Shown: positions 46,537 to 61,311 of the stretch, one piece after another
Layout of the letters: every line of letters starts with the position of its first letter
Numbering within the stretch: the stretch's first letter is position 1
Source of the DNA: Frankia alni ACN14a
Lineage (GTDB): Bacteria; Actinomycetota; Actinomycetes; Frankiales; Frankiaceae
NCBI RefSeq assembly: GCF_000058485.1
Contig: NC_008278.1
Location: forward strand, 3,776,962 to 3,840,961
DNA length: 64,000 bases
Direction of reading: 5' to 3'
The notes under the pieces: generated by a model
Databases searched by the model: none
The model's input: the letters and a program-made list of their open reading frames with translations, nothing else
What the model was told of the DNA's origin: nothing
Position numbers and translations under genes: made by a program

Positions 46537-47877
46537 TCAGCTCGCGCCGAGCTTGAAGATCCCGGTGGTGTCGAGGGAACGGAAGTTCGTCAGCGTGCCC
46601 TCCTTGTCGGAGTCCGCGATGAACCCGGTGGTGGAGCAGATGTTCGGCGAGACCGAGTTCGCCTTGCCGTTGCACTGGAAGGTCGCGCCGCCGCCGAGCG
46701 GGTACGTGGTGGGCGGCATGGTGTGCAGCGCCGTGGCGATGGCGGCGGGGCTGGCGTCCGTGCCGGGCACGGAGTTCACGCCGCGCACCAGGCCGAGCAT
46801 GCCCTGGTAACCGCTCATGCTGATCGCGTCGAACTTCAGGCCCTTGCCGTAGGCCTTGAGCACGGCGTCGAACAGCTTGAACTCGGGCGTGGACGGGTCG
46901 ACGTTGGCCTGCGCGATGATGTTGACGCCGGAGAAGCCGCCGGGGATCGACGCGCCGTGGTCGGCGCCGATGCAGCGGTCCAGCGCGGTGATCGGGGCGG
47001 TGATGCCGAGGGCCTTGATCGCCTTGATGGCGCTGGCGCAGAACGTCGGGTCACCGATGACGTGGTACATCGCCGGCTTGTTCTTCTGCGCGGTCTGGAC
47101 CTGCGGGGTCATGTCGGCGGTGCCCGGCGGGATCGCGATGACCTCGGCCTTGGTCCCGGCGTTGGCGAAGAACGGCGGGATGAGCTGCTTGGCCGGCTCG
47201 CTGGCCGCGGGCACGTCGATGACGAACACCGCGGCGCTGGTCAGCTTCTTGTCCCGGGCGAAGGCCGCGGGCGTACCGAAGGAGCCCAGGGGGTTGCCCC
47301 AGATGAACGTGTCCTTCGTCGACAGGCTGGCCTGGGTCGCGACGAGGTTGAGGGCCACCGGGATGCCCGCCGGCGCGACGATCTTCAGCCAGGGGTCGGT
47401 CTGCCCGGGGCTGCCGGCCGCGACCACGGAGACCTTCTCCCGCAGGAACTGGTTTCCGCAGGCCTGCGCGCTGGCCGGGATGGACTTGTCCTCGCAGGGG
47501 ACGAGCTCGATCTTGTGACCGTGCAGGCCGCCGAGGTGGGCGTTGGCGTAGTCGACGACGGCCTGGGCGGCCCGGATCTCGCCGGAGGTGTCGACGGCCT
47601 GCGTGCGGCCGGTGCTGACCCAGCCGACCTTCACCGGCGTGCCGGTGGCGGCCTTGGCGGGACCGAGCAGGCTGCTGTCCGACTTCGCGGCCCCGCCCGT
47701 GCTGCCGGCGCCACCGCCGCTGCTGCCGCCGCAGGCGGCCACGCCGGTGGCGACCGCCACGGCGAGCGCCACGGCCGACAGGCCGGCGCGGGCGCGCCCG
47801 CCGGATCGGGACAGGTGCCCGCGGGAGCGGGTCGGACACGCGCGCCGAAGCGGTAATCGCGAGCTGGAGATATGCAC
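46537..47877 (-). CDS. ABC importer substrate-binding lipoprotein (LivK-like), receptor 1
   Basis: 446 residues. A basic N terminus and hydrophobic segment lead to a lipobox with Cys49 (GVAACGG), then a Ser/Gly linker and a periplasmic-binding-protein type I fold (VKVGWVSTGRTQAVDTSGEI, VSVVAAGSPGQTDPWLKIVA, GYQGMLGLVRGVNSVPGTDA). It is closely similar to receptor 2 at 53.4 kb over its whole length. It should be anchored outside the membrane and deliver an acid or amide to the Liv-type permease. The GTG start has AGGAG upstream. It is divergent from the SDR at 48.2 kb, on the opposite strand to the permease genes. Confidence 0.9.
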   Translation of the reverse strand: MHISSSRLPLRRACPTRSRGHLSRSGGRARAGLSAVALAVAVATGVAACGGSSGGGAGSTGGAAKSDSSLLGPAKAATGTPVKVGWVSTGRTQAVDTSGEIRAAQAVVDYANAHLGGLHGHKIELVPCEDKSIPASAQACGNQFLREKVSVVAAGSPGQTDPWLKIVAPAGIPVALNLVATQASLSTKDTFIWGNPLGSFGTPAAFARDKKLTSAAVFVIDVPAASEPAKQLIPPFFANAGTKAEVIAIPPGTADMTPQVQTAQKNKPAMYHVIGDPTFCASAIKAIKALGITAPITALDRCIGADHGASIPGGFSGVNIIAQANVDPSTPEFKLFDAVLKAYGKGLKFDAISMSGYQGMLGLVRGVNSVPGTDASPAAIATALHTMPPTTYPLGGGATFQCNGKANSVSPNICSTTGFIADSDKEGTLTNFRSLDTTGIFKLGAS

Positions 47878-48237
47878 GCTGGAACTCCTCGTGGTGTTCG
47901 GGAAGTGCCCGGGGTCGACCCGGGTGGTGCGAGAGCGGAGCCCCGCGACGGGCGACGAGCCGTCGAGTCCGTCGGCCGCTCGGTCGAGATCGTCAGACCC
48001 GCGGGAGGACGGCCTCCTCCGCGGGATCGTGTGCGGCATCCGGACGTCGTCCGGCCGGCGGTCGGCTGACGTCCGGCCGCGATTGTGGCTTAGGTCACGT
48101 TGGGTTGTCAATGAGCGGTTGTGATCACCGTTGCGGGCGTCCCGTCGGCGCATGTGCCAGGATGGGAACGCCGTTCCCGGCCGGTGCGCGGGGGCATGGC
48201 AGCAGGGTGGATCCGTCCCGGTGGGAGAGGCAGAACA
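47878..48237. other. Divergent region between receptor 1 and the SDR
   Basis: 360 bases. On the minus strand TTGACA (48111-48106), an 18-bp spacer and CACAAT (48087-48082) form a likely promoter for receptor 1. The inverted repeat GGGAACGCCGTTCCC is at 48164-48178. No gene is seen. Confidence 0.6.
48164..48178. promoter_or_regulatory. Perfect 15-bp inverted repeat upstream of the SDR
   Basis: GGGAACGCCGTTCCC, seven-base arms around one base. It is 60 bases upstream of the SDR start and is a candidate operator for the SDR/receptor pair. Confidence 0.55.
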
Positions 48238-49035
48238 GTGGACCTTGGCATTCGTGACCGGGTGGCGCTCGTCGTCGGCGGCAGCAAGGGGATCGGGCTC
48301 GAGGTGGCGAGGATGCTCGCGGCCGAGGGCAGCCGCGTCGCCGTCGTCGCCCGCACGCAGCGTCACATCGACTCCGCCGTCGCCTCCATCGCGCAGGCCG
48401 GCGGCGAGGCGGTCGGGGTGTCGGCGGACATGAGCACCGCCGAGGGCATCACCTCGGCCGTCGCCGAGGTCACCGACCGGCTCGGGCCGCCGCTCATCGT
48501 GGTCACCCAGGCCGACTTCCACGTGCGCGGCTTCTTCGCCGAGATCACCCGGGCGGAGGACTACGTCGACTCCTACCGGACCTACACCCTCAGCCAGGTG
48601 CACATGCTGCACGCGGTCCTGCCGGGGATGCAGGAGGCCGGGTTCGGGCGCTACGTCCACATCGGCTCGGCGACCGCCAAGGAGCCGCAGAGCAAGCCTC
48701 CGCACACGGTGGCCAACGCCACCCGGCCGTCCACCGTCGGCCTGCTCAAGAGCGTCGCCGACGAGTACGCCCGCCACGGCATCACCATCAACACGATCGC
48801 CCCGGGCTGGATCGCGACGAAGACGACGAACTGGTACCTGTCGACCCACGAGGGCCTGACCGAGCCGGACGCGCGGCGCGAGTGGATGATCGAGACCGCG
48901 GGGGTGCCGGCGGCCCGGCTCGGTGAGCCCGAGGAGATCGCCTCGTCGATCGTCTACCTGTGCTCGCGCCAGGCCGGCTACCTGACCGGGCACTACATCG
49001 CCGTCGACGGGGGCCACCACCGCTCGGCCTTCTGA
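48238..49035 (+). CDS. Atypical short-chain dehydrogenase without the catalytic tyrosine
   Basis: 265 residues. The nucleotide loop LVVGGSKGIGLEVARML is intact and the C terminus reads YLTGHYIAVDGGHHRS. The region that should carry Ser-Tyr-x3-Lys reads IGSATAKEPQSKPPHTVANA then TRPSTVGLLKSV, with Asn where Tyr is expected; the Lys is kept. This divergent branch of FabG-like proteins is common in actinobacteria, and its activity is not established. GTG at 48238 follows GGGAGAGG. It lies between the importer receptor and permease genes and may modify the imported compound. Confidence 0.85.
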   Translation: MDLGIRDRVALVVGGSKGIGLEVARMLAAEGSRVAVVARTQRHIDSAVASIAQAGGEAVGVSADMSTAEGITSAVAEVTDRLGPPLIVVTQADFHVRGFFAEITRAEDYVDSYRTYTLSQVHMLHAVLPGMQEAGFGRYVHIGSATAKEPQSKPPHTVANATRPSTVGLLKSVADEYARHGITINTIAPGWIATKTTNWYLSTHEGLTEPDARREWMIETAGVPAARLGEPEEIASSIVYLCSRQAGYLTGHYIAVDGGHHRSAF

Positions 49036-49316: not shown

Positions 49317-52109
49317 TTGAGTCAACATATTGTTTTCCTGCTCCTCGGCCTCGGCAACGGTGCGGTGTTCGGTGCGCTCGCGCTCGCGCTCACCATCACC
49401 TACCGAAGCTCGGGGATCATCAACTTCGCGACGGGCAGCATCGCGCTGCTCGCCGCCTACGTCTATGCCTACCTGCGCTCCGGTGAACTGATCAACCTGA
49501 TCCCCGGCACGCCCACGACCATCGACATCGGTGGCGATCTACCGATGGGTGCGGCGTTGCCGATCGCGGTGGTGCTCTCCGCGCTGCTCGGCCTCGGGCT
49601 GCATCTGGTGATCTTCCGGCCGCTGCGCAACGCCCCGCCGGTCGCGAAGGCGGTCGCCTCGCTCGGCGTCTCGCTGGCGATCACCGCACTGATCGCCGCG
49701 CGGATGGGCACGACCGCCGTCGCGGTCGACCCGATCTTCCCGACCGACCTGTGGAAGGCCGGCTCGATCAACGTCCCGAGCGACCGGGTCTACCTGGCGA
49801 TCACCGTGCTGGCGCTCGCCGCCGCGATCTCGCTCGTGTTCGCCCGCACCCGCTTCGGCCTCGCCACCCGCGCGACGGCGTCGAGCGAGAAGGGCGCGTA
49901 CGTCAGCGGCATCTCCCCGGACCGGATCGCCGCCGGCAACTGGATGATCTCCTCGGCGGCGGCCGGGCTGGTCGGCATTCTCATCGCGCCGATCGTCCCG
50001 CTCATCCCCGTCTCCTACACGCTGTTCATCGTCCCCGCCCTGGCGGCGGCGATCATGGGCCGGTTCCAGTACGTCCTGTGGGCGGCGGTCGCCGGCATTG
50101 TCATCGGTGCCCTGCAGTCCGAGGCGCAGTACCTGCAGAACAACTACGACTGGCTGCCGTCGTCCGGCCTGCCGGAGCTCGTCCCGCTCGTTCTGATCCT
50201 CATCGTCCTCGTCGTGCGCGCCCAGCCGCTGCCCGGCCGCGGAGCGGTCATCACCCGCAACCTCGGCCGTGCCCCTCGACCGCACAACGTCGTGCTGCCG
50301 ACCGTGGTTCCGACCGTTCTCGGTGTCGTGGGCCTCATCGCGTTCACCGGCGACCTGCGGGACGGACTGATCTCCACGTTCGTCTACGCCGTCATCGCGC
50401 TGTCGGTCGTGGTCGTCACCGGCTACGCCGGGCAGGTGTCGTTCGCCCAGCTCCCCCTCGCCGGGGTCGCGGCGTTCCTGGTCGGGCCGATCTCCGAGCA
50501 CCTGCACATCGCCTTCCCCTTCGCGCCGATCGTCGCCGCGCTCGGCGCCACCGTCGTCGGCGTGGTGATCGGCCTGCCCGCGCTGCGCATCCGCGGGCTG
50601 ACGGTCGCCGTGGTGACCTTCGCGCTGGCGTTCGCGCTGGAGGCGCTGTGGTTCCGCAACCTCGACTTCGTCGGCTCGTCCGGCGCGGCGGTGCCCAACC
50701 CGGAGATCTTCGGGTGGAACCTCGGCGTCGGCAGCGGCTCGGACTTCCCCCGGGTGACGTTCGGGGTGGTCTGCCTGCTCGTGCTCGTGGTCGTCGGGCT
50801 CGGCGTGGCCTGGCTGCGCACCAGCACGCTGGGTTCACAGATGCTCGCCGTGCGCGCCAACGAGCGTTCCGCCGCGGCGGCCGGCGTCAACGTGGTGCGG
50901 GTCAAGCTCGCCGCGTTCGCGCTGGGGGCGTTCATCGCCGGTATCGGCGGGGCGCTGCTGGCCTACAAGTTCGGCAACGTCACCAACGACCCGTTCACCG
51001 CCATCGTCGGGCTGACCTTCTTCGGCACGGTCTACCTGGCGGGCACGACCTCGGTCTCCGGCGGCCTGCTCGCCGGGGTCACCGTCGTCAACGGGCTGCT
51101 CTACGCGCTCGTCGACAAGGTCGTCTCCACCGGCGTCTGGTACGAGGCGGTGGCGGCGCTGCTGCTGATCCTCACCGTCGTGTTCAACCCCGAGGGCGTC
51201 GTCGGCCCGGCCCACCAGCTGATCGAACGTCGCCGCTCGCGGTCCGCGACCACCCGCTCGGACGCGCTCGTCGCACCCGAGGACGCCGTGGTCGCCCAGG
51301 CCGGCGAGATCGTCGCCGACGCCGAGGCGGCGACCGCCGCGTCGGCGGTCACCTTCGACGACGACGGCGGGCCCCTGTTGACCGTGCGCGACCTCACCGT
51401 CCGCTACGGCGGTGTGCTCGCCGTCGACAGCCTGTCCCTGGCCGTGCCGCCGGGGCGGATCGTCGGCCTCATCGGCCCGAACGGAGCCGGCAAGACGACG
51501 GCGATCGACGCGATCAGCGGATTCGCGCGGGCCACCGGCAGCGTGGCGCTCGGCGACCAGGACGTGTCGACGCTGCGCCCGCACGAGCGGGTCCGCGCCG
51601 GGCTCGGCCGGACCTTCCAGGCGATCGAGCTCTACGAGGACCTCAGCGTCCGGGAGAACGTCAGCGTCGGGCTGACCGCGGGCGCCTCGCGGCGCCAGGC
51701 CGGCAGTTCCCGTTCCGAGGAGGTTGCGGCGACCCTCACCCTGCTGCGACTCACCGCGGTGGCCGACCGTCCCGCCGGTGAGCTCTCCCAGGGCCAGCGC
51801 CAGCTCGTCTCCATCGCCCGGGCCCTGGTCGGGCGGCCACGGGTGCTGCTGCTCGACGAACCCGCGGGTGGGCTCGACACGGTCGAGAGCCACTGGCTCG
51901 GCCAGCGGCTGCGCGACATCCGCGCCGCCGGCGTCACGATCCTCATGGTCGAACACGACATGAGCCTCGTGCTCAGCCTCTGCGACGAGATCCACGTGCT
52001 CAACTTCGGCAAGGTGATCGCGCACGGCACCCCGGCGGAGATCCGTAGTCATCCCGCCGTCGCCGAGGCCTACCTCGGTAGCACCCACGCGGAGGAGGTG
52101 TCGGCATGA
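49317..52109 (+). CDS. LivH-LivM-LivG fusion: two permease domains plus ATPase of a Liv-type ABC importer
   Basis: 930 residues combining three normally separate proteins. Residues 1-300 are LivH-like (LGNGAVFGALALALTITYRS, FATGSIALLAAYVYAYL, several membrane segments). Residues 325-630 are LivM-like, with the coupling segment AVRANERSAAAAGVNVVRVK and further membrane helices. After an Ala/Glu-rich linker (635-680), residues 682-930 are LivG: Walker A GPNGAGKTT at about 719, signature ELSQGQRQL, Walker B LLLDEPAGGLD. Such importers bring in branched-chain amino acids, urea, amides or aromatic acids. A TTG start is used, with GGAG six bases ahead. The stop overlaps the LivF-like ATG. Confidence 0.93.
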   Translation: MSQHIVFLLLGLGNGAVFGALALALTITYRSSGIINFATGSIALLAAYVYAYLRSGELINLIPGTPTTIDIGGDLPMGAALPIAVVLSALLGLGLHLVIFRPLRNAPPVAKAVASLGVSLAITALIAARMGTTAVAVDPIFPTDLWKAGSINVPSDRVYLAITVLALAAAISLVFARTRFGLATRATASSEKGAYVSGISPDRIAAGNWMISSAAAGLVGILIAPIVPLIPVSYTLFIVPALAAAIMGRFQYVLWAAVAGIVIGALQSEAQYLQNNYDWLPSSGLPELVPLVLILIVLVVRAQPLPGRGAVITRNLGRAPRPHNVVLPTVVPTVLGVVGLIAFTGDLRDGLISTFVYAVIALSVVVVTGYAGQVSFAQLPLAGVAAFLVGPISEHLHIAFPFAPIVAALGATVVGVVIGLPALRIRGLTVAVVTFALAFALEALWFRNLDFVGSSGAAVPNPEIFGWNLGVGSGSDFPRVTFGVVCLLVLVVVGLGVAWLRTSTLGSQMLAVRANERSAAAAGVNVVRVKLAAFALGAFIAGIGGALLAYKFGNVTNDPFTAIVGLTFFGTVYLAGTTSVSGGLLAGVTVVNGLLYALVDKVVSTGVWYEAVAALLLILTVVFNPEGVVGPAHQLIERRRSRSATTRSDALVAPEDAVVAQAGEIVADAEAATAASAVTFDDDGGPLLTVRDLTVRYGGVLAVDSLSLAVPPGRIVGLIGPNGAGKTTAIDAISGFARATGSVALGDQDVSTLRPHERVRAGLGRTFQAIELYEDLSVRENVSVGLTAGASRRQAGSSRSEEVAATLTLLRLTAVADRPAGELSQGQRQLVSIARALVGRPRVLLLDEPAGGLDTVESHWLGQRLRDIRAAGVTILMVEHDMSLVLSLCDEIHVLNFGKVIAHGTPAEIRSHPAVAEAYLGSTHAEEVSA

Positions 52110-53329
52110 CCGCGACGAACGAGCCGACCGCGAACGAGCCCACCGCGACCAGCGAGCCGACCGTGACGAACGAGCCCACCGCGACCAGCGAGCCGACCGC
52201 GATCAGCGAGCCGACCGCGACCAGTGAAGCGACCGCCGAAAAGCCGTCCGGGACGACGGACACGGTGGCGGCGAAGCCGGCCGATACTGCGAAGCCGGCC
52301 GATACTGCGAAGCCGGCCGATACTGCGAAGCCGGCCGATACTGCGAAGCCGGCCGATACTGCGAAGCCGGCCGACACGGCCGAACCAACTCCGGCGGAGG
52401 AGCCGACTGCCGTGCCGACGGCGGCTGCCGAGCCGGCCGCGGCCAGCGAGCCCGCCGCAGTGAAGGAGCCCGCCGCAGAGAAGGAGCCGGCTGCGGTGAG
52501 CGAGCCGGCTGCGGTGAAGGAGCCGGCTGCGGTGAGCGAGCCGGCGGTCGTGAAGGAGCCGGCCGTGGGTACCGCCGCGCCGGCGGTCGGCGGGGCCGGG
52601 ACGGGCGCCGCCACGCCGCTGCTGGCCGTGCGCGGGCTGGAGGCCGGCTACGGTGCCGTGCGGGTCGTCCGGTCGTTGGACCTGACCGCGGACAGCGGCA
52701 CGGTGCTCGGCGTTCTCGGCCCGAACGGCTCCGGCAAGACCACGATGATGATGACCCTCGCCGGGCTGCTGCCGCGGCTGGGCGGCGAGGTGCTGGTGGA
52801 CGGCTCGCCGGTGCCGGGGGGACGGCCGGCGGCGGCGAACCGGGCCGGCATCGTGCTCGTCCCCGACGATCGGGCGCTGTTCCCCGATCTCGACGTCCGG
52901 GAGAACCTCGTCGTCGCCCGGCGTTCCGGGGGATACAGTCTCGACGACGTCGTCGAGCTGTTCCCGAGCCTGGGCAAGCGGCTCAATGTGGCGGCGGGTG
53001 CGCTCTCCGGCGGGGAGCAGCAGATGCTCGCCGTCGCCCGCGCGCTCGTGCAGAAGCCGCGGGTGCTGCTCATCGACGAGATGAGCATGGGTCTCGCGCC
53101 GGTGATCGTCGAGGGCCTGCTGCCCGTGGTCCGCCGGATCGCCGACGAGACCGGGGCCGTCGTCATCCTCGTCGAGCAGCACGTCCAGCTCGCGCTGGAG
53201 GTCGCCGACCAGGCGGTCGTGCTCGTGCACGGCGAGGTCGTCCGCAGCGGCCCGGCCGCCGACCTGGCCCATGACCGGGCCGGTCTCGAGGCCGCCTACC
53301 TGGGAGCCGAGGCGGGCGCCTCCGCCTGA
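52106..53329 (+). CDS. LivF-like ABC importer ATPase with a long repeat-encoded N-terminal tail
   Basis: 407 residues; the family normally has about 235. The ATPase starts at about residue 170 (PLLAVRGLEAGYGAVRVV): Walker A GPNGSGKTT near 205, signature LSGGEQQMLAVARALV, Walker B LLIDEMSMGLAP. Ahead lie about 165 residues of Pro, Thr, Glu, Ala and Lys repeats: EPTATSEPT units, then six AKPADT units from 18-bp DNA repeats, then EPAAVKEPAAVSEPA. GGAGGTG directly upstream and the ATGA overlap with the permease-ATPase fusion show that the tail is translated. It should pair with the fused LivG domain to drive import. The tail may be a flexible spacer. Confidence 0.9.
   Translation: MTATNEPTANEPTATSEPTVTNEPTATSEPTAISEPTATSEATAEKPSGTTDTVAAKPADTAKPADTAKPADTAKPADTAKPADTAKPADTAEPTPAEEPTAVPTAAAEPAAASEPAAVKEPAAEKEPAAVSEPAAVKEPAAVSEPAVVKEPAVGTAAPAVGGAGTGAATPLLAVRGLEAGYGAVRVVRSLDLTADSGTVLGVLGPNGSGKTTMMMTLAGLLPRLGGEVLVDGSPVPGGRPAAANRAGIVLVPDDRALFPDLDVRENLVVARRSGGYSLDDVVELFPSLGKRLNVAAGALSGGEQQMLAVARALVQKPRVLLIDEMSMGLAPVIVEGLLPVVRRIADETGAVVILVEQHVQLALEVADQAVVLVHGEVVRSGPAADLAHDRAGLEAAYLGAEAGASA
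52271..52378. repeat. 18-bp tandem repeat, six copies, in the LivF-like gene
   Basis: GCGAAGCCGGCCGATACT at 52271, 52289, 52307, 52325 and 52343, exact; the sixth copy at 52361 ends GACACG, which is synonymous. Identity at synonymous sites suggests very recent expansion. Confidence 0.95.
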
Positions 53330-53440: not shown

Positions 53441-54745
53441 GTGCGCTTGTTACCGCTTCGTTTCACGACGGCCGGCCGGCTGGCCGCGCGGCCGCGTACC
53501 CGCACCGCGCTGACCGGCGTCCTGCTCGCCACCTCGCTGGTGGCCGCCGCCTGTGGTGGCAGCAGCGGCGGTGGCAGCAGCGGCGGGACGGCGAAGGCCG
53601 ACTCGGCGCTGCTCGGCCCGGCGAAGGCCGCCACCGGCACCCCGGTGAAGATCGGCTGGATCGGCACCGGCCACACCCAGGCCGTGGACGCCTCGGCGGA
53701 GGAGAAGTCGGCGCAGGCCGCCGCCGACTACGCCAACGCCCACCTCGGTGGGCTGCGCGGGCACCCGATCCAGATCGTCAGCTGTGAGGACAAATCCGTC
53801 CCCGCGGACGCGCAGGCGTGTGGCAACACGTTCGTCCGCGAAAAGGTCGCCGCGGTGGCCGGCGGCAGCCCGGGGCAGGCCGACCCCTGGATCAAGATCG
53901 TTTCTCCGGCCGGGATCCCGTCGGTGCTGAACCTGGTCGCGACGCAGACCGCCCTGACGACCAAGAACGTGTTCCTGCTGGGCAACCCGCTCGGGCCGTT
54001 CGGCACGGCGGCGGCGTACGCGCGTGAGGCCAAGCTGTCCCCGGCCGTCGTGCTCGTCATCGACGTGCCCGCGGCCAGCGGTCCGGCCAAGGCGCTCTCG
54101 CCGATCTTCTTCAACAACGCGGGAAGCAAGGCCACGGTCATCGCGATCCCGCCGGGTACCGCCGACATGACCCCGCAGATCCAGACCGCGCAGAAGGACA
54201 AGCCCGCGCTGTACCACATCACGGGTGACCCGACCTTCTGCGCCAGCGCGATCAAGGCGATCAAGGCCCTCGGCATCAAGGCCACGATCACCGCGCTGGA
54301 CCGCTGCGTCGGCACCGACAAGGGCGCCTCGATCCCCGGCGGCTTCGAAGGTGTGAAGATCATGGGTCAGGCCAACCAGGACCCGACCACCGCCGAGTAC
54401 AAGCTGTACTCGGCCGTGATCGACGCCTACGGCAAGGGCCTGAAGACCGTCGACGCCTACACCGTCAGCGGCTACCAGGGCATGCTCGGCCTGATCCGCG
54501 CGGTCAACGCCGTCCCGGGCACCGACGTGACGCCGGCCGCGGTCACGACGGCGATCAAGACGGCGCCGGCCACCCCCTACCCGATCGGTGGCGGGGCGAC
54601 CTTCCAGTGCAACGGCAAGGCGAGCCCGGTGTCGGCGAACATCTGCTCGACCACCGGATTCGTCGCCGACGCGTCCAAGACCGGCACGCTGTCGAACTTC
54701 CGCACCATCGACGCGACCGGAATCTACAAGCTCGGCGCGAACTAA
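53441..54745 (+). CDS. ABC importer substrate-binding lipoprotein (LivK-like), receptor 2
   Basis: 434 residues. Basic head, hydrophobic helix and lipobox with Cys38 (LVAAACGG), Ser/Gly linker, then the binding fold (VKIGWIGTGHTQAVDASAEE, SCEDKSVPADAQACGNTFVR, KLGAN end). It matches receptor 1 (46.5 kb) closely, including blocks such as GDPTFCASAIKAIKALGI. The GTG start has AAGGAG at the right distance. It is the third gene of the importer operon, 111 bases after the LivF-like gene. Having two receptors for one permease suggests two related ligands. Confidence 0.92.
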   Translation: MRLLPLRFTTAGRLAARPRTRTALTGVLLATSLVAAACGGSSGGGSSGGTAKADSALLGPAKAATGTPVKIGWIGTGHTQAVDASAEEKSAQAAADYANAHLGGLRGHPIQIVSCEDKSVPADAQACGNTFVREKVAAVAGGSPGQADPWIKIVSPAGIPSVLNLVATQTALTTKNVFLLGNPLGPFGTAAAYAREAKLSPAVVLVIDVPAASGPAKALSPIFFNNAGSKATVIAIPPGTADMTPQIQTAQKDKPALYHITGDPTFCASAIKAIKALGIKATITALDRCVGTDKGASIPGGFEGVKIMGQANQDPTTAEYKLYSAVIDAYGKGLKTVDAYTVSGYQGMLGLIRAVNAVPGTDVTPAAVTTAIKTAPATPYPIGGGATFQCNGKASPVSANICSTTGFVADASKTGTLSNFRTIDATGIYKLGAN

Positions 54746-54799: not shown

Positions 54800-54849
54800 C
54801 TCGCCGAGGGCGTGGGCCGCGTGACCCGCGGTTCACGCCCTCAGGCGAG
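54800..54849. terminator. Bidirectional terminator hairpin between receptor 2 and GntR
   Basis: CTCGCCGAGGGCGTG (54800-54814) pairs with CACGCCCTC-A-GGCGAG (54834-54849), 15 base pairs with one bulge, 19-base loop. The right arm includes the GntR stop codon. Confidence 0.7.
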
Positions 54850-55665
54850 CAGGTCCAGAGTGGCGGCGTTGCGTCCGCCCCCGTCGAGGTAGGCGGCACC
54901 GGCCCGCAGATGACGCCGCCACAGTGCCTGCGCACCGGCGGCGTCCCGTTGCTCGACCAGATCGACCAGGGCGTGATGCGCCCGGACGGTCGCCCGCTCG
55001 GTCTCGGCCTGCACCGACGTCCCGAGGTCGCTCTCGACCGCGGCCAGGGTGGCGCGGTCGACGATCTCCCTGAGCATGCCGATGAGCAGCTCGAGGGTTT
55101 CGTTGCCGGCCAGCCGGACGACGAGGGCGTGGAAGTCGTTGTGCAGCCGGACCGTCTCGGCCGGATCGGCGCCGTGGCGCTCCACCGCCGCGCGCAGCAG
55201 GCCCAGGTCGGCGCGGGTACGCCGGCGGGCCAGCAGCCCCGCGACCGGCGGCTCCAGATACAGCCGCGCCTCCCACACGTCGGCGACCGTCGTGCCGCCA
55301 TGCTCCAGCACCAGCCCCGCGTAGCGGGCCGCGACCTGGGGGCTCGGCGTCTGCACCCGCGCCCCGCCGCCCGCGCCGCGGCGCACGGTGATCAGCGACT
55401 CCGCCTCCAGAATGCGCAGCGCCTCCCGCAGCGTCGGCCGGGACACCCCGTACTGCGCGACGAGCAGCGCCTCCGTCGGCAGCGCCTGCCCCTCGACCAG
55501 TTCGCCGCGCACGATGCGCTGGCGCAGGTCGGCCGAGACCAGCTCGGCCATCTTCGGCACCCGCATCCGCTGCCCCACGACGCCGACCCCGCCCGCGCCG
55601 GTACCGCCGGTGCTGCCCGCGTCGCCGGTGACGCCCCCGCCCACGGCGGGCTCCGCTGTCGGCAT
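54841..55665 (-). CDS. GntR-family regulator, FadR/FCD subfamily
   Basis: 274 residues. The winged helix is at about residues 35-105 (DLRQRIVRGELVEGQALPTE, then YGVSRPTLREALRILEAESL). The all-helical FCD ligand domain follows, with the metal/ligand His-containing segment VRLHNDFHALVVRLAGNETL. Such proteins sense organic acids or acyl-CoAs. AAGGAG lies six bases ahead of ATG 55665, so this start is better than the ATG five codons earlier, which contains the ribosome site. Convergent with the importer operon, which it may regulate; the inverted repeat at 49187 is a candidate site. Confidence 0.9.
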   Translation of the reverse strand: MPTAEPAVGGGVTGDAGSTGGTGAGGVGVVGQRMRVPKMAELVSADLRQRIVRGELVEGQALPTEALLVAQYGVSRPTLREALRILEAESLITVRRGAGGGARVQTPSPQVAARYAGLVLEHGGTTVADVWEARLYLEPPVAGLLARRRTRADLGLLRAAVERHGADPAETVRLHNDFHALVVRLAGNETLELLIGMLREIVDRATLAAVESDLGTSVQAETERATVRAHHALVDLVEQRDAAGAQALWRRHLRAGAAYLDGGGRNAATLDLLA

Positions 55666-56324
55666 GCGTGTCTCCTTCATGGGTGGATCTCCACGCTACC
55701 GGCCAGGCACGCCCAGGCCGCCCACCCTCTGCGAGCCGGTGTGCAGGGGAACGGCGCCATCTGCCCGTCCGGGAGGAGTAGAAGGGACGCCGAACCCTGC
55801 AGAACAACCGCGGAGGCCGCTCTCCCGTCCATGGTCGTGTGCAGGACCCGTCGACCGCCGCAAACTCTCGGGAGTTTTTCGGCAAGGCGCCGAGGGCTTC
55901 GATGACGGCGATGGCGGCCGCCTCGCTCGGGCCGTTTGCGGAACTGCTGGGGTGAAGCCGCCTTCCGACCGTGCTGGTCGGGGCTGGAGTTCATCGGTGC
56001 CAAGTTCCTTCGATGCCTGTCGTGAGGACGGTCGAAAAGCCCGTTCGTGGGCTGGCGGAGAGTGTCGCGTGATGCCATCGAGAGTGTCTTTGTGCAGGTG
56101 GCGACGGCTTGTGGGGCCGTCTGGCGGCGGGACCGCCGGCCGTTCTCCTGATCTTCGGTCAACGAGGAGCGGCGCGGCGGCGGCGGTAGGGCCATACGCC
56201 GCTCCCGCGGTCGAAAGCGAAGCGTCCGGCCTCATCGCAACACGCCCGGAAACCGCGCTGAAAGACGGTCTAGCCATTACCCTGTGCCGGAAAAGTTGAC
56301 TACCCTTTCAGCGGGAGGACAACG
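55666..56324. other. Gene-free region before the RCC1-repeat gene
   Basis: 659 bases of less extreme GC content. Readings in both strands lack ribosome sites, known motifs and normal codon use, so I call no gene. Promoter sequences for GntR (minus) and the RCC1-repeat gene (plus) must lie here but none is clear. Confidence 0.55.
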
Positions 56325-57590
56325 ATGTCCGACATACGGAAAATAAGATGGCAATCAGGAAAGCGGAAATCTGTGCCGGGCGCGGCTGTGTTCGCAGCCG
56401 CGTTCTCCCTGATATCCCTGACGCCCGCCGCGGCATTCGCGACGGGAACGGCCGACTGGTCCGCCGCGAAGCCGGCGGCAGCAGGCCGGCACGGCGCGCC
56501 GCCGGCCACCGGGGTCGCCTGGTCCTGGGGGTGGAACGTGGAGGGGCAGCTCGGCGACGGCACGCAGACCGACAGCAACCGCCCCCTCCCGGTCACCGGT
56601 ATCGACAGCGTCACCGCGGTGGCGGGTGGTGGCGTCACCGGGTACGCGCTGCGCCGCGACGGCACCGTCTGGGCCTGGGGCGCCAACTCGGCCGGGCAGC
56701 TCGGCGACGGCAGCACCACCGACAACAACGTGCCTGTCCGGGTCGGCGTGCTGGACGGGGTCACCGCCGTCGCCGCGGGCGCCACCGCCGGGTACGCGCT
56801 GCGCCGCGACGGCACCGTCTGGGCCTGGGGCGCCAACTCGGCCGGGCAGCTCGGCGACGGCACCACCACCGACAGAGACTTTCCTGTCCAGGTCGGCGGG
56901 CTGGCCGACGTCACCGCCATCGCCGCAGGCCAGAACGCGGGGTACGCGTTGCGCCGGGACGGCACGGTCTGGGCCTGGGGCGCGGGCTGGACCGGTCAGC
57001 TTGGCAACGGCACCGACACCGACAGCGGCACACCCGTCCAGGTCGCCGGTCTTGACGACGCCACCGCTGTCGCCGCGGGCGACGGCACGGGATACGCGCT
57101 GCGCCGCGACGGCACCGTCTGGGCCTGGGGAGCGAACGGGGTGGGTCAGCTGGGCAACGGAACCACCACGGAAAGCAACGTTGCTGTCCAGGTCGGTGGG
57201 TTGGACGAGGCCACCGCCATCGCCGCGGGCGCCGGATCGGCGTACGCGCTGCGCCGCGACGGCACCGTCCGGGCCTGGGGCAACAACTCGGAAGGCCAGC
57301 TGGGCGACGGCACCACCACCAGCAGCACCACCCCCGTCCAGGTCGACGGACTGGACGACGTGAACACGATCGGGGCCGGCGGCAACACCGGCTATGCGGT
57401 GCGCGAGGACGGCACAGCCTGGTCCTGGGGCGTGAACTGGTTCGGGCAGCTCGGCGACGGTACCAACACCGACAGCTTCAGCCCGGTCCGGATCGCCATC
57501 CCCGCTCGCGTCACCGCCATCGCCGGCGGTGGCTACAGCGGATACGCGCTCGGCGGGCCCGCCCGCAGGCGCCACGCAGAAGCCTCCTGA
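56325..57590 (+). CDS. Secreted RCC1-repeat (beta-propeller) protein
   Basis: 421 residues. A signal-like N terminus (basic RKIRWQSGKRKS, hydrophobic VFAAAFSLISLTPAAAFA) suggests export. After a short Ala/Pro stretch come seven RCC1-type repeats of about 50 residues, each with GYALRRDGTVWAWG and GQLGDGTTTD motifs, enough for a closed seven-blade propeller. Bacterial RCC1-like proteins are usually binding or cell-surface modules; no enzyme domain or anchor is visible. Adjacent repeats share DNA blocks identical over 73 bp. GGGAGGA precedes the ATG. It does not fit the catabolic context and has no operon partner. Confidence 0.9.
   Translation: MSDIRKIRWQSGKRKSVPGAAVFAAAFSLISLTPAAAFATGTADWSAAKPAAAGRHGAPPATGVAWSWGWNVEGQLGDGTQTDSNRPLPVTGIDSVTAVAGGGVTGYALRRDGTVWAWGANSAGQLGDGSTTDNNVPVRVGVLDGVTAVAAGATAGYALRRDGTVWAWGANSAGQLGDGTTTDRDFPVQVGGLADVTAIAAGQNAGYALRRDGTVWAWGAGWTGQLGNGTDTDSGTPVQVAGLDDATAVAAGDGTGYALRRDGTVWAWGANGVGQLGNGTTTESNVAVQVGGLDEATAIAAGAGSAYALRRDGTVRAWGNNSEGQLGDGTTTSSTTPVQVDGLDDVNTIGAGGNTGYAVREDGTAWSWGVNWFGQLGDGTNTDSFSPVRIAIPARVTAIAGGGYSGYALGGPARRRHAEAS
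56640..57575. repeat. RCC1-encoding tandem DNA repeats, about 150 bp each
   Basis: Six to seven units at 150-bp spacing. The block 56640-56712 is identical to 56790-56862, suggesting recent duplication or gene conversion. Confidence 0.85.
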
Positions 57591-57667: not shown

Positions 57668-59962
57668 TCAGCGGGGCATGCCGAGGACGCGTTCGGCGAG
57701 GATGTTGCGCATGATCTCGGTGGTGCCGCCGGCGATCGTCGCCGACCGCGACATCAGGTACTCCCGCTGCGCGCGGCGCCCGGTCGTCTCGGCGACGCCG
57801 GCGAGGCCGAGCGCGGCGAGGTGCGTCTCGCCCTGGTGCTGCATGGCCCGCGACCACAGCAGCTTGATGACCGAGTGCTCGGCGCCGGGCGCGCCGCCCT
57901 CGGCGATGCGCCCGAGCGCGCGGCTGCCGAGCAGGCCGACGAGGCGGGCCTCGACGAGCCGGTCGGTGAGCTCCAGGCGGGTCTGCTCGTCCAGGCCGTG
58001 CCCGGACAGCGCCGTCACCAGGTCGTCGACGGACTGCTCCAGCCCGGCGGCGAGCTCGATGACCCCCGCCCGCTCGAAGCCGAGGGTGGTCATCGTGACC
58101 GTCCAGCCGGCGTGCAACGGGCCGAGCAGCGCGCTGCGCGGGACGCGAACCTCGTCGTAGAACACCTCGGCGAAGCCGCTCTCGCCGGTGATCATCGTGA
58201 TCGGGCGGCGGGTGATGCCGGGCAGGTCGAGCGGCACGAGCAGCGCGGAGATCCCGCGGTGCGCCGGCGCGTCGGGGTCGGTGCGGGCGAGCAGCAGGCA
58301 GTGGGTCGCCTCCATGCCCTCCGACGTCCACACCTTCTGCCCGGTGATGACGAACGCGGCGTCGTCGCCGTCGCCGACGAGCTCCGCGCGGGTGCGCAGC
58401 GAGGCGAGGTCGCTGCCGGAGCCCGGCTCGGAGAAGCCCTGGCACCAGATCTCGGTGCCGGCCTGGATCGCCGGCAGATGTGCCTTCTGCTCCGGGGTGC
58501 CGTAGCGCATGAGCGTCGGGGCGACGTTGTTCAGGCCGAGGACGCCGCCGAGCGGCTGCGGCGCCCGGTGCGTCGCCATCACCCGGTCGCAGGCGACCTG
58601 GTCGACGATGCCGAGCCCGCGCCCGCCGTACTCCACCGGCCACTGCGGGGCGACCCAGCCGACCGAGTGCAGCGCCTGCTGCCAGGCCATCCGGGAGGCG
58701 AACGACACCTCGTCACCCCAGCGCTCGCGCCAGGCGGGCAGCAGGGCGGCGACGTGCCCGGCGAGCTCCGCGGCGGGCCCGGAGTCGGGCACGCTCAGCG
58801 TCGGGCGGGCGCCGGTGCCGCGCCGCGTCGGGTCGAGCCGGGCGCGGTGCGCGCCGGCGCCGCCGAGCAGCGGCGCGCCGGCCGCGGCGCGGCGCAGGTA
58901 CAGGTGGACCTCGTGCTCCCAGGTGAAGCCGATCCCGCCGAGGATCTGCAGGTACTCGTTGGAGACGACGCCGGCGGCGCGCCCGGCGGCGAGCAGGGCC
59001 AGCGCCAGGGCGTCGTCGAGCTCGGCCGGGTCGGCGGCGGCGTCGTCGAGGCGGGCGGCGAGGTGGCGGGTGGCCGCGCGGGCCTGCTCGACCTCGGCGA
59101 GCATCTCGGCGCAGCGGTGCTTGATGGCCTGGAAGGAGCCGATCGGCCGGCCGAACTGGTGGCGGTCGGCCGCGTAGGCGACCGCGCCGGTCAGGCAGTG
59201 CCCGGCGAGACCGGTGCACTCGGCGGCCAGCGCGAGCGCCGCGGTGGCCTGACCCCGGCGCACCGCCGCGGTCGCCTCGGCGCCCGCGGCCAGCACGGTG
59301 CCCGGGGTGTCGTGCAGGGTCAGCGTGCCCAGTGGCCGGGTGGCGTCGACGCCGTCGACGCGGGTCAGGTCGAACCCGGCCGCGCCGGCGTCGACCGCGA
59401 CCAGCAGCGGACCGTCCGGTGCCTGCGGACCGCCGGCTGCTTCGGCGAGCACCAGCACGTGGGCCGCCTCGGGGGACAGCACGGCGGAGACCTCCCCGGT
59501 GAGGGTCACCTGCGCGTCGGTCGGCGACGGCGCGGTCGCGCGCACCGAGCCGGGCGCGCCCCACAGATCCTCGTGCGCGGTCCAGGCGAAGGTCGCCACG
59601 GTCCCCTCGGCGACGGCGCCGAGCAGCGCCGACGCCGGCGCACCGGGCAGCGCCTGGAGGGTTCCGAGCACCGCCGCGGCGCCGATGCTCGGCACCGGCG
59701 CGAGCACCGCCCCGACCGCCTCCAGGGCGACGGCAAGGTCGACCCAGCGACCGCCGGCGCCGCCCTGCTCCTCGGCCAGCGGCAGGCCCGCCAGCCCCAC
59801 CTCGGCCAGCGCCGCCCACACCGGCAGCTCCGAGACCTGGGCGGGGTCGGCGATCTGCTTGTGCCGGGAGTCCGCGGGCCAGTGGCGGGCGAGCTGGCCG
59901 ACCACCGCCTCGGTGAGCGCGGCCTGATCCTCGGTGTCGGCGACCCCGACCTGGTCGATCAC
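57668..59962 (-). CDS. Fused double acyl-CoA dehydrogenase (FadE34/ChsE3-like)
   Basis: 764 residues containing two ACAD modules. Residues 1-385 form a small-subunit-type module: no SEPxAGSDLA motif, but YAADRHQFGRPIGSFQAIKH and ILGGIGFTWEHEVHLYLRRA are clear. Residues 400-764 form a large-subunit-type module with CQGFSEPGSGSDLASLRTRA, TGQKVWTSEGMEATHCLLLA, GFAEVFYDEVRVP and SRSATIAGGTTEIMRNILAE. This is the heteromeric ACAD in one chain, as known for FadE34 of mycobacterial steroid breakdown. The order (small then large) is opposite to the gene order in pairs 1-3. GTG 59962 has GAGG upstream. It follows the CaiB gene on the same strand. Confidence 0.92.
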   Translation of the reverse strand: MIDQVGVADTEDQAALTEAVVGQLARHWPADSRHKQIADPAQVSELPVWAALAEVGLAGLPLAEEQGGAGGRWVDLAVALEAVGAVLAPVPSIGAAAVLGTLQALPGAPASALLGAVAEGTVATFAWTAHEDLWGAPGSVRATAPSPTDAQVTLTGEVSAVLSPEAAHVLVLAEAAGGPQAPDGPLLVAVDAGAAGFDLTRVDGVDATRPLGTLTLHDTPGTVLAAGAEATAAVRRGQATAALALAAECTGLAGHCLTGAVAYAADRHQFGRPIGSFQAIKHRCAEMLAEVEQARAATRHLAARLDDAAADPAELDDALALALLAAGRAAGVVSNEYLQILGGIGFTWEHEVHLYLRRAAAGAPLLGGAGAHRARLDPTRRGTGARPTLSVPDSGPAAELAGHVAALLPAWRERWGDEVSFASRMAWQQALHSVGWVAPQWPVEYGGRGLGIVDQVACDRVMATHRAPQPLGGVLGLNNVAPTLMRYGTPEQKAHLPAIQAGTEIWCQGFSEPGSGSDLASLRTRAELVGDGDDAAFVITGQKVWTSEGMEATHCLLLARTDPDAPAHRGISALLVPLDLPGITRRPITMITGESGFAEVFYDEVRVPRSALLGPLHAGWTVTMTTLGFERAGVIELAAGLEQSVDDLVTALSGHGLDEQTRLELTDRLVEARLVGLLGSRALGRIAEGGAPGAEHSVIKLLWSRAMQHQGETHLAALGLAGVAETTGRRAQREYLMSRSATIAGGTTEIMRNILAERVLGMPR

Positions 59963-60096
59963 TGCTGGGATACCTCGTGGGGCTCGGCGGGAGGCGCCGT
60001 GGGCGCCCCGCGGGGGTGAGAGCAGTACGTGAACGAAGCGGCACGTGCGACGGCGGGCCGGGCGTGCGTCACCGCGGCCCGGCCCGCCGTGCTCGG

Positions 60097-61311
60097 TCAG
60101 CTGGTGGCGCCGTTTTCCTTGAACTCGATGATCTTGTCCCAGTCGTAGCCGAGCTCGAGGAGGATCTCCTCGGTGTGCTGGCCGTGCTCGGGGGCGGCGG
60201 TGAGGTCGAGGTGCTTCTCGTCGAACTGCACCGGGCTCGCCGCGACGGAGAACGTGTTGCCGTTGCCGTCGGTGATCTTCGGCAGGTAGCCGTTGGCCTG
60301 GACCTGCGGGTCCTGATGCAGCTCGGGGGCGGTGCGCACGGCGTCCCAGACGCCGTCGAAGTCGGCGAGGGCCTTCTCCCAGTGCGACAGCGGCGCCGAC
60401 TCGAAGGTTGCCCGCAGCTCGGCGATGCACTCGCGCCGGTTGGCGAAGCGGACCTTCGCGTCGCTGTACCGGGGGTCGTCGATGAGGTCGGTGCGGCCGA
60501 GCCGGGTGCAGAAGTCCGCCCAGAAGCGGTCGGCCTGCAGCAGCACGACCGCGAGGAAACGGCCGTCGCCGGTGCGGTAGAGGTTCGCGACCGGGTTGGG
60601 CATCTCCTCGAGCTGGAACTTCGGGATCGGGGCGCCGGTGACGCCCGCCCCGACGATGTCCGGGGCGAGCTGCCAGATCGCGGCGGCCAGCAGGGACACG
60701 TCGACGACGGACGGCTCGCCGCTGCGCTCGCGACGGAACAGTGCCGCGGCGATGCCGCCCGCGAGCGCGAAGCCGCCGTAGGTGTCACCGAAGGCGGGAC
60801 GCTGCGGCGCGGGCCAGTCGCCCTCGTGCGGGATGAGCGAGTCGCCGATGCCGCCGCGCGACCAGTAGGCGGCCATGTCGTACCCGCCGCGGCCGGCCTG
60901 CTCCCCGCGCGAGCCGTAGCCGTGGCCGCGCGCGTAGATGATCTTCGGGTTCCAGGCGCGGACGTCGTCGACGTCGATGCCGGCGCGGGCGCGGGAGTCG
61001 GGCAGCAGGTTCGTCACGAACACGTCCGACTGCTCGACCAGCTTGCGCAGGATCTCGCGGCCGGACTCGCTGCCGATGTCCAGACCGAGGCTGCGCTTGC
61101 CGCGGTTGGGCTGCTCGATGAAGTGGTTGATGCTGCCGGCACCGGCGACGATGCCGGAGCTGATCAGGCCGCGCTGCGGGTCACCCGTGACCGGGTGCTC
61201 GATCTTGACGACGTCGGCGCCCCAGTCGGCGAGCACGGCGCCCGCCGACGGGACGAACGTCCACGTCGCCACCTCGACGACCCGCACGCCGGCCAGGATG
61301 TCCTGCTTCAT
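60097..61311 (-). CDS. CaiB/BaiF family CoA-transferase or racemase
   Basis: 404 residues. Family opening LAGVRVVEVATWTFVPSAGA, DWGADVVKIEHPVTGD, QPNRGKRSLGLDIGSESGRE, and the catalytic region GRGGYDMAAYWSRGGIGD with Asp in the expected place, followed by FGDTYGGFALAGGIAAALF. All features of an active family III enzyme are present. The ATG at 61311 lies inside the second copy of a 17-bp duplication, whose first copy supplies a six-codon leader overlapping by ATGA. ATG 61350 is an alternative without a ribosome site. It lies upstream of the fused ACAD on the same strand. Confidence 0.88.
   Translation of the reverse strand: MKQDILAGVRVVEVATWTFVPSAGAVLADWGADVVKIEHPVTGDPQRGLISSGIVAGAGSINHFIEQPNRGKRSLGLDIGSESGREILRKLVEQSDVFVTNLLPDSRARAGIDVDDVRAWNPKIIYARGHGYGSRGEQAGRGGYDMAAYWSRGGIGDSLIPHEGDWPAPQRPAFGDTYGGFALAGGIAAALFRRERSGEPSVVDVSLLAAAIWQLAPDIVGAGVTGAPIPKFQLEEMPNPVANLYRTGDGRFLAVVLLQADRFWADFCTRLGRTDLIDDPRYSDAKVRFANRRECIAELRATFESAPLSHWEKALADFDGVWDAVRTAPELHQDPQVQANGYLPKITDGNGNTFSVAASPVQFDEKHLDLTAAPEHGQHTEEILLELGYDWDKIIEFKENGATS

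Follow-up and report, generated by a model that had tools for sequence, protein, structure and literature searches.

A LivH-LivM-LivG fusion in Frankia alni ACN14a: a genuine single frame of an architecture ordinary for its lineage

Does one reading frame in Frankia alni ACN14a genuinely encode both permeases and an ATPase of a Liv-type ABC importer and, if so, how unusual is it and what might the importer carry? In the E. coli LivJ/LivKHMGF system (HAAT family, TC 3.A.1.4) the subunits are separate proteins, whereas a sequence-only reading of a 64,000-nucleotide stretch of the F. alni genome (positions 3776962-3840961 of 7497934 bases; hereafter the window) had proposed that LivH, LivM and LivG (H, M and G; F denotes LivF) are fused here, in that order, in a 930-residue frame. 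The open reading frame and its Pfam architecture, PF02653-PF02653-PF00005, confirm this proposal. The features concerned, in window coordinates, are:

49317..52109, plus strand: LivH-LivM-LivG triple fusion, 930 residues, TTG start (open reading frame, Pfam, codon comparison, AF2)
49317..50231, plus strand: LivH-like permease domain, residues 1-305, PF02653 (Pfam; boundaries from AF2 helices)
50232..50306, plus strand: H/M junction, residues 306-330, conserved, basic, probably cytoplasmic (alignment, codons, AF2)
50307..51224, plus strand: LivM-like permease domain, residues 331-636, PF02653 (Pfam, AF2)
51225..51374, plus strand: M/G linker, residues 637-686, fast-changing and of variable length (alignment, codons, AF2)
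51375..52106, plus strand: LivG-like ATPase domain, residues 687-930, with PF12399 at its C-terminus (Pfam, fold match, motifs)
52106..53329, plus strand: LivF-like ATPase, its start overlapping the stop of the fusion (open reading frame, Pfam, motifs)
52106..52618, plus strand: repetitive N-terminal tail of LivF, 171 residues, rich in Ala, Thr, Pro and Glu (sequence, ortholog comparison)
53441..54745, plus strand: substrate-binding lipoprotein, Peripla_BP_6, PF13458 (Pfam, lipobox-like C)
46537..47940, minus strand: second substrate-binding lipoprotein, Peripla_BP_6, start codon uncertain (Pfam, lipobox-like C)
48121..49035, plus strand: short-chain dehydrogenase/reductase directly upstream of the fusion (Pfam)
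54841..55680, minus strand: GntR/FCD regulator, FRAAL3533 of F. alni ACN14a by position (Pfam, table in PMC10252897)

The frame at 49317-52109 holds 930 sense codons and no internal stop. It opens with TTG and closes with a TGA overlapping the next ATG; GGAG lies six bases 5' of the TTG, and an in-frame TGA two codons 5' makes TTG 49317 the earliest possible start, a later one being possible. The two PF02653 (BPD_transp_2) stretches score 165 bits over the whole protein against a cut-off of 26.8 (87.4 and 85.9 bits as separate rows), and are followed by PF00005 (ABC_tran) at residues 704-850 (103.7 bits) and by PF12399 (BCA_ABC_TP_C) at residues 899-924, the C-terminus of a LivG-type ATPase (46 bits, cut-off 25.5). 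This order in one stop-free frame places the protein in the H-M-G class. The junctions, expected near residues 310 and 640, lie at about residues 306-330 and 637-686, and the LivG-like domain carries Walker A at 720, TFQ at 766, LSQGQ at 823, Walker B at 843 and VEH at 878.

A LivF-like second ATPase does overlap the fusion, as had been claimed, by the four bases ATGA at 52106. It matches PF00005 at 90.6 bits, with Walker A at 205, LSGGE at 300 and VLLIDE at 320, and Walker A, signature and Walker B are intact in both G and F. The overlap of stop and start suggests coupled translation. A subunit ratio of 1:1:1, which the sequence-only reading took to be fixed, holds for H, M and G through their covalent linkage, but the overlap with F fixes no ratio. 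The tail of LivF is encoded in the window by 18-base tandem repeats; where LivF is complete, in five Frankia strains (the window and L026-L029), it measures 106-171 residues and is hypervariable in length and sequence, yet stays in frame. LivF of the relatives L030, L031 and L033 has no such tail.

The two receptors flanking the transporter score 109.8 and 103.9 bits for Peripla_BP_6 (cut-off 31.7), both with a lipobox-like C. They share 72% identity across 383 aligned positions, a likeness from which the pair would apparently be a duplication. Two PF02653 stretches, two ATPases with intact motifs, PF12399 and a nearby Peripla_BP_6 receptor together mark the locus as HAAT/Liv-type. A table in PMC10252897 places FRAAL3533, a GntR-family regulator, at 3831802 in F. 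alni ACN14a, which is exactly window position 54841, and lists it among the genes that Frankia clusters 1-3 share and cluster 4 lacks at 50% identity. In another table FRAAL3527, a 'Branched-chain amino acid ABC transporter', shows a 3.71-fold higher level with fumarate than with propionate; the order and spacing of the labels make it probable that this is the 46.5-47.9 kb receptor. A search of the open-licence literature for the labels FRAAL3527 to FRAAL3532 returned FRAAL3527 only, in that paper, and passages of PMC8951365 and PMC4447401 contain nothing on the locus. Further along the window lie an RCC1-repeat protein with seven repeat matches (56325-57590, plus strand) and a 920-codon frame with repeated acyl-CoA dehydrogenase domains (57668-60430, minus strand); a similar double acyl-CoA dehydrogenase frame stands beside the Nocardia relative L048.

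We consider it highly probable, as a joint reading, that the fusion and LivF make up the core for translocation in a HAAT/Liv-type ABC importer, served by the receptors, whose substrate is likely a carbon source catabolised as CoA esters. One polypeptide would supply both membrane domains and the first ATPase, and LivF, translated from the overlapping start, would supply the second. Substrate would be delivered by either of the two similar lipoprotein receptors, and ATP binding would close the G-F pair and so drive the H-M pore. Going by what is generally known of ABC importers, the assembly most likely comprises one fused chain and one LivF. The E. coli system resembles the locus in its two PF02653 permeases, two ATPases, kind of receptor and two receptors per core; there LivJ and LivK share one core, and by this likeness one core may be common to both receptors here. 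The fusion is probably an evolutionary convenience, giving fixed stoichiometry and joint folding, and not a new mechanism.

Rather than leucine or valine, the importer probably takes up a carbon compound whose breakdown runs through CoA esters. The likeliest classes are carboxylic, aromatic or terpenoid-like carbon sources, a view favoured by proximity to Amidohydro_2 genes and by the CoA-catabolism genes that flank relatives; the fumarate difference of FRAAL3527, if that is the receptor, counts on the same side. The host genome has 31 PF02653 matches, which group into 14 clusters containing both H- and M-type matches, plus three other loci that lack them (L022-L024). Six of the 14, more than expected, have an Amidohydro_2 gene no more than 10 kb away (21 such genes exceed the cut-off; two weaker matches were dropped). 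Controls reached as many in 6 of 5000 rotations and, with local shifts, in 2 of 5000, counts that are not clean probabilities, since the family was picked after it had been sighted beside the window and L048 and two families and three distances were tried. Acyl-CoA dehydrogenase genes occur within 10 kb of five of the 14 clusters, a number equalled in 70 of 5000 rotations and in 383 of 5000 local shifts; given its weakness against the local control, this neighbourhood was rejected as substrate evidence. A scan of 20 chosen flanking ORFs in four loci (L030, L035, L041 and L048), made without control loci, found thiolase, enoyl-CoA hydratase, CoA-transferase, acyl-CoA dehydrogenase and amidohydrolase genes around the last three jointly. 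The ORFs chosen around L030 (Modestobacter) were SDR-type, GntR/FCD, DUF2889 and MMPL, with no CoA-pathway gene among them besides the SDR-type ORFs. Thiolase and crotonase genes also lie near the plasmid relatives in Rhodococcus BH4 and RHA1. Another actinobacterial ABC importer, PatDABC of Rhodococcus jostii, serves an aromatic acid, phthalate (PMC3983516; PMC10973024), but differs in having PatB and PatC as separate permeases beside the ATPase PatA (PMC3983516).

That the locus instead encodes a genuine importer of branched-chain amino acids, sharing the specificity of E. coli Liv, strikes us as rather unlikely. LivG is the best NCBIfam match of the ATPase, at 198.9 bits, and annotators' labels read 'branched-chain amino acid ABC transporter'. 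That score, however, falls short of the equivalog cut-off of 362, as does LivF (138.3 of 441 bits), a point on which the window departs from the E. coli system; moreover, 14 paralogous clusters in one genome, together with catabolic neighbours, suggest diverse substrates. A urea or amide importer of the Urt kind is very improbable. Among NCBIfam matches UrtD comes second for G, with 191.8 bits, and UrtE leads for LivF, with 181.3 bits, but the cut-offs of 304.1 and 285.8 are missed, as is that of UrtB (118 of 250.3 bits), and a Pfam scan of 11 proteins of the window found no urease family. With the Liv and Urt equivalog cut-offs missed alike, neither named function is transferable.

The chain that would form this core is a real triple fusion, neither a chance frame nor an assembly error. 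A full-length frame is present in five other Frankia genomes at 94-98% identity, and the five closest named relatives in that range are all Frankia strains; this conservation, together with 30 relatives that align with the window protein through both junctions, argues against an assembly error. A chance frame is contradicted by third-position GC of 0.84-0.97 in all five segments (H, H/M junction, M, M/G linker and G) and by the excess of third-position changes over first- and second-position changes in H, the H/M junction, M and G when compared with five Frankia orthologs (L025-L029). In the same comparison the H/M junction (306-330) shows 0-1 non-synonymous against 1-8 synonymous codon changes, and the M/G linker (637-686) shows 6-14 against 5-6, without a third-position excess. 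The linker nevertheless keeps its frame in the orthologs, with one whole-codon gap in one strain, and is, to judge from these substitutions, loosely constrained. Its length differs among the window and the 30 relatives, in all of which the H/M junction keeps P306, R308, G317, P320 and P322. Residues 302-325 include four K/R and no D/E, a basic character that agrees with the junction's probable cytoplasmic position.

An AF2 model built on the alignment of the window and 30 relatives reached a pLDDT of 82.3 and a pTM of 0.83 (an alignment-free run, at a pLDDT of only 38.8, was discarded). Values below 50 are confined to 54 residues, 305-316, 646-679 and 923-930, that is, both junctions and the final eight residues. 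In a fold search the ATPase domain of the model finds solved ABC ATPases, among them the branched-chain ATPase MJ1267 (1gaj; Z 29.1, rmsd 2.4, 232 aligned), and ATPase domains fill the lists obtained for the fusion. A PDB sequence search with residues 1-640, the H-M permease part, returned no match at E<=1.

The fast evolution of the M/G linker and the very low model confidence at 646-679 could also be read as marking a flexible site at which the chain is cut after translation, leaving the subunits to act separately; nothing positive speaks for such cleavage, and we hold it to be quite improbable. An artefact of sequencing or assembly, with the genes separate in the cell, is of negligible probability: high-GC genomes typically yield long chance frames and many overlapping ORFs are listed here, but frameshift errors at the junctions, the hazard that the sequence-only reading had itself raised, are ruled out by the frame shared with the five Frankia genomes and the relatives aligned across both junctions, by third-position changes dominating in four of the five segments, and by a fast linker that still holds its frame.

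How common, then, is the fusion? It had been thought less usual, and a census of the host genome, order, class and phylum led us to reject that view. In the host genome H, M and G share one frame in nine of the 14 Liv-type clusters (the window, L011-L016, L018 and L020); H and M are fused with G apart in four (L010, L017, L019, L021), and all three are apart in one (L009). Among 79 loci of relatives, kept from the best 80 of 358 and thus biased toward close kin, 32 are H-M-G, 31 have H-M with G apart or unseen, three have M-G, 12 have all three apart and one has ATPases only. The triple fusion occurs in at least 29 of the 35 genomes sampled from the order, at least 16 of 98 from the class and at least 13 of 296 from the phylum, a genome being counted where a single stop-free match row begins no later than residue 30 and ends no earlier than residue 900. 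These are lower bounds because few candidates per genome were scored (25, 9 and 3, respectively), and the samples are nested, each including the window's own genome. The architecture also has a RefSeq name, 'branched-chain amino acid ABC transporter permease/ATP-binding protein'. Census counts and existing name together establish it as widespread and ordinary for the lineage; the sequence-only reading had allowed that it might prove both widespread and already characterised, and the second part does not follow, as no paper describing or characterising an H-M-G fusion was found in the open-licence literature. Its remark on LivM-LivG fusions in actinobacteria was sound: H, then M-G, then F occurs in five genomes of the phylum (L141, L142, L144, L145 and L147), two of them of the same genus.

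A quick tree was built from the H, M and G domains joined end to end (81 rows; the program flags several long branches). It requires two or more changes for the joining of H and M and six or more for the H-M-G state; leaving out L136, whose frame may be split through an error in a draft assembly, lowers the latter minimum to five. An earlier tree of 76 rows, lacking the actinobacterial M-G rows, gave one change for H-M and six for H-M-G; the single joining of H and M was lost once those rows were added. Of seven M-G loci considered, the five with a visible H were used, the other two being cut by contig ends. Loci without all three domains, or repeated, were omitted (L001-L008, L022-L025, L056, L065, L107-L112, L123), as were L039 (split G match) and L125-L127 (H, M and G incomplete); 40 of the 116 remaining rows, mostly near-copies and picked by hand, were dropped before the 76-row tree. 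On this tree G has repeatedly joined or split, by gain or by loss of the link.

Frankia itself displays many states: H-M-G with F (the window), H-M with G and F (L010), H with M-G and F (L141), H-M with G-F (L019), H-M-G-F (L118), and H-M-G without a LivF gene close by (L020 and its orthologs). L019 (1786-5684) combines two two-part fusions, one frame holding H-M and a second G-F. The four-part state is a single case, found in the Frankia genome G297 as a frame of 1351 codons (L118, 922-4974, minus strand). The corresponding locus of the window's genome, L020, is H-M-G with no LivF match in the fetched flanks; the same holds within the fetched flanks of the counterparts in G306, G299, G305 and G296, and a LivF match is present for those in G302, G301, G303 and G307. 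By locus, the H-M-G orthologs without a LivF match in the fetched flanks are L020, L129, L130, L131 and L135, from five genomes; LivF adjoins H-M-G in L132, L133, L134 and L136, and L128 is uninformative, stopping at a contig end. Elsewhere, the nearest LivF-like frame to the triple fusion in L015 and L125 (3901-4929) was found a few kb upstream, not directly behind, and L117 and L119, which stood out by very long frames, proved to be H-M-G with LivF upstream in another frame.

Two loci offer a closer comparison with the window. WP_081559128.1 of Rhodococcus sp. BH4 has the same H-M-G order in one frame, at 53.9% identity over 99%, with a receptor gene before the fusion and an ATPase gene right after it, as in the window. 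It differs in having one receptor, upstream and on the same strand, and other flanking genes; its LivF, annotated at 726 bases, has no long tail, unlike that of the window. The closest paralogue in the host genome, L016 (65%), is likewise H-M-G with an adjoining LivF frame, at another locus and presumably for another substrate.

Taken singly, the case adds little, the architecture being widespread and named, with no characterisation found in the open-licence literature. A single-chain H-M-G protein may nevertheless be easier to handle in structural studies, and it is the H-M part that has no PDB sequence match at E<=1. We would also raise, as a speculation that we ourselves rather doubt, that actinobacteria have repeatedly been reducing a four-protein importer to fewer chains, that cores without F borrow a LivF or use one kind of ATPase, and that the LivF tail is possibly a substitute tether. 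The changing fusion states and the orthologs without F constitute a natural series on the role of covalent linkage in ABC importers.
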